Shown here: one piece after another, positions 46,689-51,912 of the stretch
Layout of the letters: each line of letters opens with the position of its first letter
How positions within the stretch are numbered: the stretch's first letter is position 1
Origin: Candidatus Poribacteria bacterium
GTDB taxonomy: Bacteria > Poribacteria > WGA-4E > WGA-3G
Assembly: GCA_009839745.1 (NCBI GenBank)
Contig: VXPE01000137.1
Coordinates: 1-55,191, forward strand
Direction: 5' to 3'
DNA length: 55,191 nucleotides
Made by a program: the position numbers and the translations under genes
The notes under the pieces: generated by a model
Told to the model about the DNA's origin: nothing
Seen by the model: the letters and a program-made list of their open reading frames with translations, nothing else
The model's database searches: none

Positions 46689-47753
46689 TCACTGCAGGAT
46701 AATTGTATCATCCGCGCTGTGAACAGGATGCGGACTCAGGTCGTAGTCGCCATCCAAGGAAATATCGTCAAGCAGGACGATCTCCCCAGACCTCGCCGAC
46801 TGGTGAAGTCCGAACACCGTTTGGACAACGTGCAAGTTACCACGTCCATGTGTGATAGGCGTTTCTCCCGTACGTAGACACTCCTGAAAGTGAGTCATCA
46901 CGTTTCCGAAGGCATCTGGAAACCACGTTCCCTCAATCGACGGTTTAATCTCACGCACTTCCGGTTCCGTGAGTTGAACCGTCATATCCTCGCTGTTTCC
47001 GTAGATTGCCCCTTTCGTCCCTTGGATGCGGATTTCCTCGTGTGGATGCTGTAAATTGCGTCCAGAATCGGCGAGAAACGCCCAGTTACACGAAAGCAAG
47101 CCTTGGACACCGCTCCGACTCTTGAAAAGCGCGACGGAAACGGCTTCTCCGTCCTCAATAGTGCGGTTATGTCCGTGTGCTTGGCAATAAACGCTCTCAT
47201 ATTCCCCGAACCATTTATGAATAAGTCCAATGTGATGCACCTGCATCGCTGGAATCAGATGGCGTTCAGGGAACTCCGTGTAGAACCCGTTGCAGGTTAT
47301 TGAGGCATGGTAAATTTCGCCGAGATGCTCAGCAGTGATGTAGGGTTCAATCGCGAGGAAACCGGGAACAAAGCAGGAGTTCTGGTTCACCATCAGCTGC
47401 ACGTTATGTCGCTCACAGATCTCCACCATTTCAACCGCTTGTTGCATCGACATTGAAAACGGTTTTTGACAGAGAATATGCTTACCAGCCGCAGCAGCGG
47501 CTTTGACGATAGGGGAACGGATCCACGGCTGCACTGCCATATCAACCACATCAACATCAGCATCCGCAATCAGATCAGCGATACGAGTATACCGCTGATC
47601 GATGTGAAATTGGTCTCCAACCTCGTTAAGCCGTCCAGCATCTTTATCACAGATTGCAGCAACGCGTAAACCTTGACGTTGATAACCCAGCAAATGCTGC
47701 TGTCCGATACCCAACCCAATCAAACCGATCCCGAATTCCTGCTTGCTTGTCAT
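46689..47753 (-). CDS. Gfo/Idh/MocA-family oxidoreductase
   Basis: The 354-residue protein has FGIGLIGLGIGQQHLLGYQR (Rossmann motif), VDVVDMAVQPWIRSPIV, GKHILCQKPFSMSMQQAVEM (QKP in place of EKP, lysine kept) and VQLMVNQNSCFVPG. ATG 47753 is favoured because GGAGG lies upstream of it but inside the longer frame starting at 47777. It converges on the enolase-superfamily gene and follows another Gfo gene by 37 bp, so the two are likely one operon. Substrate unknown. Confidence 0.87.
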   Translation of the reverse strand: MTSKQEFGIGLIGLGIGQQHLLGYQRQGLRVAAICDKDAGRLNEVGDQFHIDQRYTRIADLIADADVDVVDMAVQPWIRSPIVKAAAAAGKHILCQKPFSMSMQQAVEMVEICERHNVQLMVNQNSCFVPGFLAIEPYITAEHLGEIYHASITCNGFYTEFPERHLIPAMQVHHIGLIHKWFGEYESVYCQAHGHNRTIEDGEAVSVALFKSRSGVQGLLSCNWAFLADSGRNLQHPHEEIRIQGTKGAIYGNSEDMTVQLTEPEVREIKPSIEGTWFPDAFGNVMTHFQECLRTGETPITHGRGNLHVVQTVFGLHQSARSGEIVLLDDISLDGDYDLSPHPVHSADDTIILQ

Positions 47754-47790
47754 TGTATCGATTGTCCTCCAACGCACAACTGCGAGACGG

Positions 47791-49053
47791 TTAGATACCT
47801 AATCCTTCGTCAATTTCGCGTTGGTATGTATTAATGGATTCATCCAACATCTGATCTATTTGAACGATCTGTCCCGTTGCCCCCGACTCAAGCATCGCGT
47901 ATGAAAGGGCAACAGACCGAGTCCCCTGATCGGCATCGACCTCAACCTCACTGTTTCCAGCGATGGCTTCAGCAAAGTCTCCATATTCAATGGCGATAAT
48001 CTTCGGGTCAATTTGCGTAAACGGCAATTCATATTTCCACAACCGGTCTCCGCCAAAGAGATCTGTTGTGACGGCATCTAAACGAAAATCTGGAACGAGA
48101 TCCAAGAGTCGCTCGTCATTAATCGTTTCCTGGCCGTTAATATTGAGGGTGATAATTCCGCCGCTCCGGTCGCCGGGGAGCGTCATAGAGCCTTGGGATC
48201 CGTGAATTTTCCGAAGCCAACCGCCTTCTCCCCATGCCCCGTGGTCCTCAATATATTGCCCCACAACCCCGCTTTTGAAAGTCAAGGTCGCATACGCCGC
48301 ATCCTCTGCAGTCGCCTCGAATTCAGCAGGCATCTTACGTTGCCATTTCGTATACACCCCAGCAGGATTAGAGCCGGATTCACCCGTCACTGCCGCGGCG
48401 TTATACCGGATCGGTTCATGGAGTCGCGTCTGCGCATAGATTGTATCAATATCGCCAAGCAGATACTCGATCATGTCCGCATAGTGAACACCGACATCAA
48501 GTAATACACCACTTTGATCTTTCTGGTGTCGCCAGACGGAGATAGTCATACGGTTTGTGCCACCGATCGCCTGGTGAATGAGGAAACGAGGTTTGCCGAT
48601 AACCTCTGCATCTATCAGCGCTTTTGCGAGCCGATTGATCGGGTCGCGCCGATAGTTTTCCGCAACGCTAAGAATCGCATCCGACGCATCGGCAGCACGA
48701 CGAATCAGGTTACAGGCTCGAACGGTCAACCCCATCGGCTTTTCGACCATCGTGTGCCACCCACGCTCAAGCGTCTCAATAGCCACGGTGTGATGATACG
48801 GTGGCGTAGTCGTCACATCCACAGCATCTACGCCGACTGCAGCGAGCTCTTCTAGACTCCCAACAACAGCAGGTTTCTCTCCGAAACGTTCTTCTGCTTG
48901 CGAAGCGAGCGACTCGGCATTCGCGAGGACAGGATCACAAGCACCGACAAGGTTAAACCGCGTCCATCCTGCCCGATGCAGTTCCGCTAACCCGTACATG
49001 TGTCGGTGTCCCATACCGCCACATCCAACGATTGCTAATCTAATTTTATCCAT
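47791..49053 (-). CDS. Gfo/Idh/MocA-family oxidoreductase
   Basis: The 420-residue protein has IRLAIVGCGGMGHRHMYGLA (Rossmann motif), VDAVDVTTTPPYHHTVAIET, GWHTMVEKPMGLTVRACNLI (EKP motif) and the ILSVAENYRRDPINR catalytic-loop segment. It is longer than the other two Gfo proteins here, with inserts after residue 200. GGGGAG precedes ATG 49053. It shares direction with the Gfo gene downstream. The substrate is unknown. Confidence 0.88.
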   Translation of the reverse strand: MDKIRLAIVGCGGMGHRHMYGLAELHRAGWTRFNLVGACDPVLANAESLASQAEERFGEKPAVVGSLEELAAVGVDAVDVTTTPPYHHTVAIETLERGWHTMVEKPMGLTVRACNLIRRAADASDAILSVAENYRRDPINRLAKALIDAEVIGKPRFLIHQAIGGTNRMTISVWRHQKDQSGVLLDVGVHYADMIEYLLGDIDTIYAQTRLHEPIRYNAAAVTGESGSNPAGVYTKWQRKMPAEFEATAEDAAYATLTFKSGVVGQYIEDHGAWGEGGWLRKIHGSQGSMTLPGDRSGGIITLNINGQETINDERLLDLVPDFRLDAVTTDLFGGDRLWKYELPFTQIDPKIIAIEYGDFAEAIAGNSEVEVDADQGTRSVALSYAMLESGATGQIVQIDQMLDESINTYQREIDEGLGI

Positions 49054-49089: not shown

Positions 49090-50532
49090 TTATTGATTAA
49101 GGATTCTTTCTAAACGCTTGAGATCCGTTTCCATTTGTGCCGCCTTATCACGATAATATTGGGCGCGGTTCATCACCTTCTTCGCATATCTTTTACCTCT
49201 GCTAATAAGGGGACCACGTATTTTCACTTTGGCGGGACCAACGTTGTATGCGCCGAGTGCCAAAGTCAAATTGTTCAAATGTTTTTTATAAAGCATCTTG
49301 AAATAAGTTAAACCCGCGTGCAAGTTTATGTTCGGATCAAATCGTTCATCTATCTTCGGATCACGGTTCGGTTTCCTTCTATTTTTGTACTGCGGCACCT
49401 TGAGTCCAAGGTCTCGTGCAGCACCAGGCATGAGCTGCATTAAGCCTGCTGCGCCGTTTTCCGACACGGCAAGCGGATTAAAGTTGGATTCCGTATGAAT
49501 AATAGCAAGCATGAGTGCTACATCAATGTCGTATTCCCTCGCGATTTGGGCAGCTTTATAGGGACGAGCAGCCATCGGGCGCCCGCTTTCAGGCACTTCT
49601 TTGTTGACTGCTGACCGTGAAACAGGTTGGGGAAGACCGAAAGACATGCCTATCGAAGCGAGATGTCTATGCTCGAAATCGTGGTGATTCAAATATGTAT
49701 AATGGAACTGCTTCCCCAATTGGTTCAGTGAAAACCCGACACTCCAAGATTGAGAAGGGGTTCCAGTGCCAAAGGTGAACATTGACCCGATGTGAGCCGC
49801 GATCGTTCTATTTCCGATTTCTACGCTTGTCCCAAAACATGGATGGATAATATCGAGTCGATTATGCCATCGGATAATCGGGTGAGGCGTTAGGACTGCA
49901 CCGAGGGCAAGTTGCTGATCGAAAGTTTGCAATACCTGACCATCTCTATGTCGAATGGTTACGCCAGCAATGTCGCGTAATCGCATCCCCACAGCAAGGT
50001 AAGGGGTAAGTTCTGTGAGAACGCCAACATCATAATTTTGTGCCCAGAGACTGCCATAATAAGGTGCCCGGCTATACCCTGTGCTGGCACCCAGTTGAAA
50101 ACTGCCGAACCGCCTCGCATAGGAGAACAGCGCTTGATTATTGCCGAGTTTGAAACTGCCAATCGGGTTCGCCGTATGTTCTACGAGAAATCGATCGTTG
50201 CGATTTAAATCAAGGAAATTTATACCAAATGTGCCAATATATTTGATAGGATAAGCGATGGAGATGGCACCTTGGGAGAGGTCGTAAATTAGGTTTCCAC
50301 GCTCCAACGTGGCAAGTCCGGCGGGATTCCAGAGGGGACTTGTGGCATCGTCTGCACTGCTGATGAATGCGCCGCTCAACCCAAGTCCACGCGTGCCAAC
50401 TTCGGGTCTCAGGTTAAAAGAATCTGATGATGTGTTTTCTTGACCCAGAAAATACGCTAATGAGAGAAAAACAATCGCTACGAGTAGCAAACCCCGTTTA
50501 TGGTATAGTAATGTGATTCGTTGGATTTTCAC
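49090..50532 (-). CDS. Outer-membrane beta-barrel (PorV/UPF0164-like) fused to a lytic transglycosylase
   Basis: The roughly 480-residue protein has a signal or anchor (RGLLLVAIVFLSLAYFLG), then a 260-residue beta-barrel region. That region has PorV features (VGTRGLGLSGAFISSADDAT, SPLWNPAGLATLERG, FGINFLDLNRND). A lytic transglycosylase (SLT) domain follows: ALMLAIIHTESNFNPLAVSE with catalytic E348, then NGAAGLMQLMPGAARDLGLK and LALGAYNVGPAKVK. It would cleave peptidoglycan from the outer-membrane side. The start is taken as GTG 50532; a longer frame to 50604 overlaps the M23 gene by 107 bases. It overlaps that gene in any case. The domain pairing is unusual. Confidence 0.8.
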   Translation of the reverse strand: MKIQRITLLYHKRGLLLVAIVFLSLAYFLGQENTSSDSFNLRPEVGTRGLGLSGAFISSADDATSPLWNPAGLATLERGNLIYDLSQGAISIAYPIKYIGTFGINFLDLNRNDRFLVEHTANPIGSFKLGNNQALFSYARRFGSFQLGASTGYSRAPYYGSLWAQNYDVGVLTELTPYLAVGMRLRDIAGVTIRHRDGQVLQTFDQQLALGAVLTPHPIIRWHNRLDIIHPCFGTSVEIGNRTIAAHIGSMFTFGTGTPSQSWSVGFSLNQLGKQFHYTYLNHHDFEHRHLASIGMSFGLPQPVSRSAVNKEVPESGRPMAARPYKAAQIAREYDIDVALMLAIIHTESNFNPLAVSENGAAGLMQLMPGAARDLGLKVPQYKNRRKPNRDPKIDERFDPNINLHAGLTYFKMLYKKHLNNLTLALGAYNVGPAKVKIRGPLISRGKRYAKKVMNRAQYYRDKAAQMETDLKRLERILNQ

Positions 50533-51280
50533 TTCTGTCTTTGTACCTAATTTCAAAATGTAAATGGGGTCCTGTCGAAACACCCGTGTTCCCGGAAAGC
50601 CCAATTACCTTTCCCTTTGTGACAGTTTGCCCAACTCTTACTCTAATACCTGACAAATGCCCATACCATGTCGTAAAATCGCCCTCGTGTTCAATACCAA
50701 TAACTTTACCATAGCCGTTTCTGCGACCAGCAAAAATCACCTTACCCGCCCTGGAGGCATATACGCGTGTGCCTGTAGCAGCACGAAAATCTATACCCTC
50801 ATGAAGTTGGTAACGTCTCGTCACAGGATGATGACGGTAACCATACTTTGAGGTTACGACTAAAGGGACCCGAAGCGGATTTCCAAAACTTAGACTGTTA
50901 TCTCGTTGAATACGGATTCTTGTGCCAATCTGGAGGCGACGCGGTGAAGTTATACCATTAATGCGCTGAAGGTCTTGCCAGTCAACGTTATGACGACTCG
51001 CAATACCAGACAACGTATCCCCGGCTTTAACCCGATACCAGATCCCTTCAACGGGTGCTCCAGGAATTAAAAGCTTTTTCCCAATCTGCAATGGATTCGT
51101 TGGTTGAATACTGTTAGCCTGAATAATCTTTTTCAGAGGTACTTTATATTTCCGAGAAATCCCCCACAATGTATCGCCTTTTTGCACCAAATGCTGTTGT
51201 CCGCTAGCACGCAATTCCATTCCAGAGATTACCACCATAGACATAACTACAATAAACGTACGAATCAATTTTCTCTTCAT
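50498..51280 (-). CDS. LysM-M23 peptidoglycan peptidase
   Basis: The 260-residue protein has a signal segment (residues 1-26), LysM domains at about 29-73 (LVQKGDTLWGISRKYKVPLK) and 81-125 (YRVKAGDTLSGIASRHNVDW), and an M23 domain. The zinc ligands are seen as LHEGIDF (H160, D164) and GPHLHFEIR (H239, H241), so the enzyme should be active. It would cut peptide cross-links in the cell wall. ATG 51280 is chosen because AGGG precedes it. The following gene overlaps its 3' end, so the two cell-wall enzymes are translated together. Confidence 0.92.
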   Translation of the reverse strand: MKRKLIRTFIVVMSMVVISGMELRASGQQHLVQKGDTLWGISRKYKVPLKKIIQANSIQPTNPLQIGKKLLIPGAPVEGIWYRVKAGDTLSGIASRHNVDWQDLQRINGITSPRRLQIGTRIRIQRDNSLSFGNPLRVPLVVTSKYGYRHHPVTRRYQLHEGIDFRAATGTRVYASRAGKVIFAGRRNGYGKVIGIEHEGDFTTWYGHLSGIRVRVGQTVTKGKVIGLSGNTGVSTGPHLHFEIRYKDRSENPTNHITIP

Positions 51281-51381: not shown

Positions 51382-51912
51382 CTAATCTCTAACGGTTAGT
51401 AAAACCGTTTTTGTTTCCGAAATAATTTGGGTATCAGTATCAATTCCAGAGGCACCGACTGAAACAACTTCGCTAATCACAGTCACAATAAGTTGGATGA
51501 CTTCAACTTGAGCGTTCGCCCCATTTAATGTTTGCGGAGCAGTCCAAGTAATTGGATTTTCGCTGGAGGCGGAAAGCTTCCCATACTTTGTAATATTCAG
51601 CCAGTTCAATGTGACACTGCTACCTCTAACTCCTTTGACGGAAGCAGCCAACTCCACCTCTTCACCGGGGTCCACCGTTTTCTTCGTAACGGTGACTTTT
51701 ACGTCAAGATTGGCAATCTGCTCCGTCGTCTCCTCAGCGTTTAGGTTTCCTGTAAGTTCAACGACACCGTCGGTACTCCCACTACCCTCAGCGACCGCAT
51801 CCCCTTCCGAAACAGGGTTGTTGAGGTTGCTCCCACCACAACTCGCGAAACTTAATACGAAACCCGTAAGGAGAATGTAAAAAGATATTGTAAGGAATCG
51901 AGATCCTTTCAT
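51382..51912 (-). CDS. Lipoprotein with an immunoglobulin-like region
   Basis: The 176-residue protein has a signal ending in the lipobox FASCGGS. Beyond a short linker it is beta-rich: LDVKVTVTKKTVDPGEEVEL, LAASVKGVRGSSVTLNWLNI, VVSVGASGIDTDTQIISETK. This resembles a Big-type surface domain. ATG 51912 has AGAGGTGG upstream; the frame extends to 51930. Function unknown; the cell-wall genes nearby suggest an envelope role. Confidence 0.7.
   Translation of the reverse strand: MKGSRFLTISFYILLTGFVLSFASCGGSNLNNPVSEGDAVAEGSGSTDGVVELTGNLNAEETTEQIANLDVKVTVTKKTVDPGEEVELAASVKGVRGSSVTLNWLNITKYGKLSASSENPITWTAPQTLNGANAQVEVIQLIVTVISEVVSVGASGIDTDTQIISETKTVLLTVRD

Follow-up and report, generated by a model that had tools for sequence, protein, structure and literature searches.

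The known lytic transglycosylases of the outer membrane are mostly lipoproteins, the Mlt enzymes being held there by a lipid anchor. Outer-membrane barrels with an even number of strands leave both of their ends, and with them a C-terminal domain, in the periplasm. Barrels of the FadL family are described, in the available parts of the sources, as docking on larger assemblies: PorV docks on SprA (PMC10994853), and BamG docks on BamA together with a lipoprotein partner, BamH (PMC12578637, PMC12611786).

The stretch of DNA analysed here (the window) comprises 55,191 nucleotides from a Candidatus Poribacteria bacterium (contig VXPE01000137.1 of assembly GCA_009839745.1). Poribacteria are bacteria that mostly live in sponges. 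A sequence-only reading of the window had placed at 49090-50532 a PorV/UPF0164-like barrel fused to a lytic transglycosylase, and these coordinates are correct: the gene lies on the reverse strand, starts with GTG, encodes 480 amino acids and ends with a stop codon at 49090-49092. The open reading frame as called mechanically is longer (49090-50604, 504 aa, TTG start). Given that the GTG at 50532 is kept at the same position in every genus member compared, we take the protein to have 480 residues, and the TTG at 50604 was dropped in its favour. Following the conserved start, residues 1-41 (50410-50532, reverse strand) form a signal-type N-terminal segment with a hydrophobic stretch.

A profile built from 26 members was run against 84 Poribacteria genomes, 82 of which belong to the window's class. 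Both halves lie in one frame in 79 of these 82 genomes, single-contig ones included. A single match runs across both halves in 78 of the 82, while G037 gives two matches within one 444-aa frame; in G063 a stop is flagged inside the match, yet one 607-aa frame contains both halves. The halves are separate or incomplete only in G015, where the gene meets a contig edge, in G058, which has a frameshift, and in G059, where they lie at two contig ends. These three genomes are what could be cited for the view that the join is an assembly or frame artefact, a possibility that the sequence-only reading had itself raised. With one-frame fusions in 79 genomes, this view is refuted and retains a negligible probability; a frame error or chimera is ruled out. 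Chance is no concern at the domain scores obtained, and the fusion is confirmed as one intact gene.

Residues 42-299 (49636-50409, reverse strand) are predicted to form a FadL/PorV-type barrel with an N-terminal plug, its 14 strands falling within residues 79-298. The NCBIfam model PorV_fam (NF033709) matches this part with 46.2 bits (E 4.6e-12), under its curated cut-off of 90; of 26 diverse members, 25 are matched with E no higher than 0.001, although only over the first half of the barrel and of the profile. Pfam Toluene_X (FadL/OMPP1, PF03349) gives 14.2 bits against a cut-off of 29.7 (E 0.015). Outright membership of the PorV family, as proposed earlier, is thus not borne out by the profile score, and the proposed membership of UPF0164 is not supported either, this family being absent from the Pfam matches down to E 1. 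When the barrel profile was searched against PDB sequences with the same limit of E 1, nothing matched.

The structure models of the barrel rest on only 22 related rows and are of modest confidence. The full-protein model (mean pLDDT 66.2) contains the 14 strands (79-298) and a well-predicted SLT domain. The barrel-only model has a pTM of 0.63 and a mean pLDDT of 58.9, with the plug and one long early loop below 50, and the details of the plug are unreliable. Among solved structures, this model matches FadL 3pgr with a Z of 23.0 (239 residues, 2.5 A), PorV 8gl6_F and 6h3i_F with Z of 21.4 and 20.6, and 9n2d_B, a chain of a Bacteroidota BAM complex that we take to be the FadL-type subunit BamG, with Z 20.5. 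Since other barrels, for example OmpG, follow only at Z 16.6 and lower, the FadL group stands out. Hence, what holds of the earlier proposal is an N-terminus of FadL/PorV type, fused in frame, with 14 predicted strands and Z of 20.6-23.0 to FadL and PorV. As to whether the barrel is complete, the strand count and the Z scores to the FadL group speak in favour, while the modest pLDDT, lowest in the plug, speaks against; the models suggest a complete 14-stranded barrel. Judging by dN/dS (0.04-0.12 in the 18 computable of 21 comparisons with the window), the barrel is under strong selection.

The likeness to FadL also bears on a different explanation, in which the barrel serves as a channel: wall fragments would be freed, or the wall cleared, by the transglycosylase, and the FadL-like pore would move the fragments or hydrophobic molecules across the outer membrane. 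The closest solved folds are indeed FadL-type transporters (Z up to 23.0). However, a shared fold is no proof of transport, as BamG and PorV have it in other roles according to the available part of the source (PMC12578637), and no transporter gene was found among the conserved neighbours. We consider a channel quite improbable.

PorV-like barrels with long C-terminal extensions are also encoded at L129:3078-5558 (827 aa) and L128:2737-4860 (708 aa), and a 697-aa frame at G000:C41:24039-24860 is perhaps another. The extensions of the first two contain no Pfam domain; our guess is that such extensions are transglutaminase-like.

In the fusion protein, the barrel is followed by a flexible linker of low conservation (residues 300-326; 49555-49635, reverse strand), which spans 27-75 aa in 22 aligned rows of close relatives and, as judged by eye, some 20 aa in L060 and L063. 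Its composition is variable and rich in Pro, Ser, Thr and Gln, and its dN/dS (0.43-0.98 where computable in the 21 comparisons with the window) is looser than that of the barrel. Residues 327-437 (49222-49554, reverse strand) then form a family-1 lytic transglycosylase (SLT) domain, which scores 95.3 bits with Pfam SLT (PF01464; cut-off 21.3, E 2.4e-27); SLT-type NCBIfam models match all 26 of the diverse members within the same E limit of 0.001. Every one of 26 diverse rows keeps E348-S349, G363-L364-Q366 and Y429-G432, and the E-S, G-L-x-Q and A-Y-N-x-G-type motifs are present. E348, encoded at 49489-49491 on the reverse strand, is presumably the catalytic glutamate, by the role known for the SLT family. 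When 55 fusion rows were checked for the SLT pattern, 50 conformed; ES and GLxQ are visible in the displayed stretch of three others (L053, L075, L076), and the remaining two are the broken pieces of G058 and G059. The SLT part of the model matches Slt 5mpq with Z 15.2 and MltC 4c5f with Z 13.7. Its dN/dS is 0.08-0.21 in 16 of 18 computable comparisons; the two closest pairs give 0.32 and 0.69. The claim that a lytic transglycosylase with intact motifs is joined to the barrel stands. A second kind of SLT protein (701 aa), in which the SLT domain comes after TPR repeats, is encoded at L127:1806-3908 in G042.

Along the reverse strand, the gene order is a small lipoprotein (51382-51912, likely ATG at 51912), a LysM-LysM-M23 peptidase (50498-51280, likely ATG at 51280, stop at 50498) and the fusion. 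Pfam M23 (119.6 bits) and LysM (112.6 bits) are both well above their cut-offs for the peptidase, whose sequence contains the metal-ligand motifs HEGID, YGHL and HLHFE. That the fusion gene overlaps the M23 gene at the latter's 3' end, as noticed before, is confirmed: the shared segment covers 35 bp (50498-50532) and is conserved in the genus.

The neighbours were then counted at 54 loci from 53 genomes, the window's own locus being excluded and three duplicate loci dropped. M23 adjoins the fusion in 36 of the 54 (L156 and L160, with M23 beside the fusion, are counted here), and the lipoprotein is near it in 41. Both partners are found in 32 loci, the lipoprotein only in nine, M23 only in four and neither in nine. 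Three of the four M23-only loci have less than 1 kb of upstream sequence, and the fourth, L074, is without the lipoprotein in 4.1 kb. Four of the loci with neither partner are limited by contig ends (L078, L082, L083, L157); the other five (L073, L077, L079, L080, L081), with 3.4 kb or more upstream, belong to family f5. As neither partner was found upstream in these five genomes, the partners are not required there.

The strict M23 motif pattern is present in 33 of the 36 M23 rows, two more have HxGTD, and the row of L075 stops short of the last motif. In a genome-wide search of 16 genomes, no close M23 relative was found in eight, namely the clean lipoprotein-only ones, where the best M23 E-values are 2.3e-16 to 1.1e-21, versus 2e-78 and 6e-69 in two M23-keeping genomes. 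In the ninth lipoprotein-only locus, L072, a frame of 88 aa whose end resembles M23 (L072:1343-1606) lies between the lipoprotein and fusion genes and looks like a decaying M23 gene, as if being lost. M23 as an obligatory partner was rejected on three counts: its lack in the eight genomes, the remnant in L072, and family f5 with neither partner. Thus, of the proposal that two wall enzymes are made together, the overlap remains, but M23 is no fixed partner.

The steadier partner is the upstream lipoprotein, which the sequence-only reading had overlooked. It carries a CGGS-type lipobox behind a signal segment; Cys-Gly is invariant in 15 of 15 rows, and [GAS]CG[GES] occurs in 41 of 41 ORFs. It possibly has one Ig-like domain: Ig-like matches are weak and scattered among 15 lipoproteins (for instance Big_12 at 0.0031 and PKD at 0.0098), with none for the window's protein, and a PDB sequence search with the lipoprotein profile gives weak matches only.

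In family f1 only, two further genes lie downstream of the fusion in the same orientation (window 46689-49053). The one at 47791-49053 is a Gfo/Idh/MocA-type dehydrogenase by Pfam, and by our reading 46689-47777 may be a similar one. These dehydrogenases were rejected as part of the system, being elsewhere not found or on the opposite strand. A scan for promoters and terminators was uninformative, with counts near shuffle level.

The single frame, domain content, conserved motifs and gene order are observed directly, whereas the location, activity, lipoprotein partnership and cellular role of the fusion protein are inferred. It is probably a lytic transglycosylase that a barrel, rather than a lipid, anchors in the outer membrane. 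The N-terminal half would fold in the outer membrane as a 14-stranded FadL/PorV-type barrel; 14 being an even number, both ends would face the periplasm, and it is a natural inference that the enzyme is held at the outer membrane by the barrel. The flexible tether would keep the complete family-1 transglycosylase domain just beneath the membrane, where it is predicted to act on the outermost layer of peptidoglycan and to cleave its glycan strands. As for the upstream lipoprotein, it probably assists from the periplasm or bound to the barrel. The LysM-M23 endopeptidase that most lineages encode next door may cut cross-links at the same place. The likely task would be to thin or turn over peptidoglycan locally from the outer-membrane side, which might serve growth, cell separation (proposed in the sequence-only reading) or a machine.

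SprA-like matches were found in 83 of the 84 genomes of the phylum, one of them over the curated cut-off. In the window's genome, the SprA-like protein at G000:C42:96390-100313 (L146:4504-11283) is matched in four stretches with E 1.3e-40, its 138.7 bits falling short of the cut-off of 200. Along with matches to the type IX C-terminal signal in that genome, this suggests that Poribacteria have a type IX-like system of a divergent kind.

An alternative to a free-standing anchored enzyme is that the barrel docks on a SprA-like type IX translocon or a complex of the BamA/BamG type, with the transglycosylase opening the wall for the machine or its cargo. The docking of PorV and of BamG provides the precedent, the window's own genome has a 2259-aa SprA-like protein together with 32 matches to type IX C-terminal signals, and the barrel model matches the BAM-complex chain at Z 20.5. 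On the other hand, the Z scores to plain FadL transporters are similar, and no secretion or BAM gene was found among the conserved neighbours. The SprA-like matches in 83 of 84 genomes include two genomes without a shown fusion and so amount to no specific co-occurrence; being that widespread, they cannot decide a type IX link, neither for nor against. We regard this alternative as reasonable but unlikely. It is similarly doubtful in its class-wide form, where a machine of SprA-like or BamA type would receive the barrel, the lipoprotein would fix the barrel there, and the transglycosylase, with M23 where present, would make the gap needed by the machine or its cargo. If true, wall opening would be wired directly to the site of outer-membrane assembly or secretion across the Poribacteria class.

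Returning to the proposed barrel-anchored lytic transglycosylase, it is class-wide in Poribacteria. Outside the window's class but within the phylum, G060 shows no fusion; the SLT frame of G061 is cut short by the end of its contig. For the 302 genomes from outside the phylum (386 minus 84), with up to three candidates scored per genome, none of the matches listed runs across both halves, and none of nine long-frame or high-scoring SLT proteins from there has a barrel by profile. In a literature search over titles and abstract openings, in which subscription journals were scarcely covered, we found no paper on such a barrel-SLT fusion.

Taken together, the fusion would be another way of placing a wall-cutting enzyme, and one strongly conserved across the class. 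It offers a defined and testable gene set (barrel-enzyme, lipoprotein and often M23) for the coupling of outer membrane and wall in an uncultured phylum. With a barrel of the PorV/BamG kind, the fusion further makes it possible to ask in concrete experiments if machines of the outer membrane and the opening of the wall are linked.

With the family-1 enzymes MltC, MltD and EmtA, the fusion shares the SLT fold and motifs, with NCBIfam and PDB matches to MltC, and presumably also the site, the inner face of the outer membrane; unlike them, it has a predicted 14-stranded barrel in place of the lipid anchor. Its barrel has the same predicted fold as PorV (Z 20.6-21.4; PorV_fam matching 25 of 26 members), from which it differs in a score below the curated cut-off, a match over the first half only, a shorter barrel and an added C-terminal enzyme domain. 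BamG of the Bacteroidota BAM is likewise a FadL-type barrel with a lipoprotein partner; however, the available parts of the reports describe no enzyme domain for it (PMC12578637, PMC12611786), and no BAM gene was found beside the fusion. Finally, porin-PapS of Rhodospirillum rubrum resembles the Poribacteria locus in pairing an outer-membrane barrel with a lipoprotein for work on peptidoglycan (PMC11369160). There, as far as the available part of that report describes, the two are separate proteins and the lipoprotein binds peptidoglycan, whereas in Poribacteria the barrel protein itself carries the predicted cutting enzyme.
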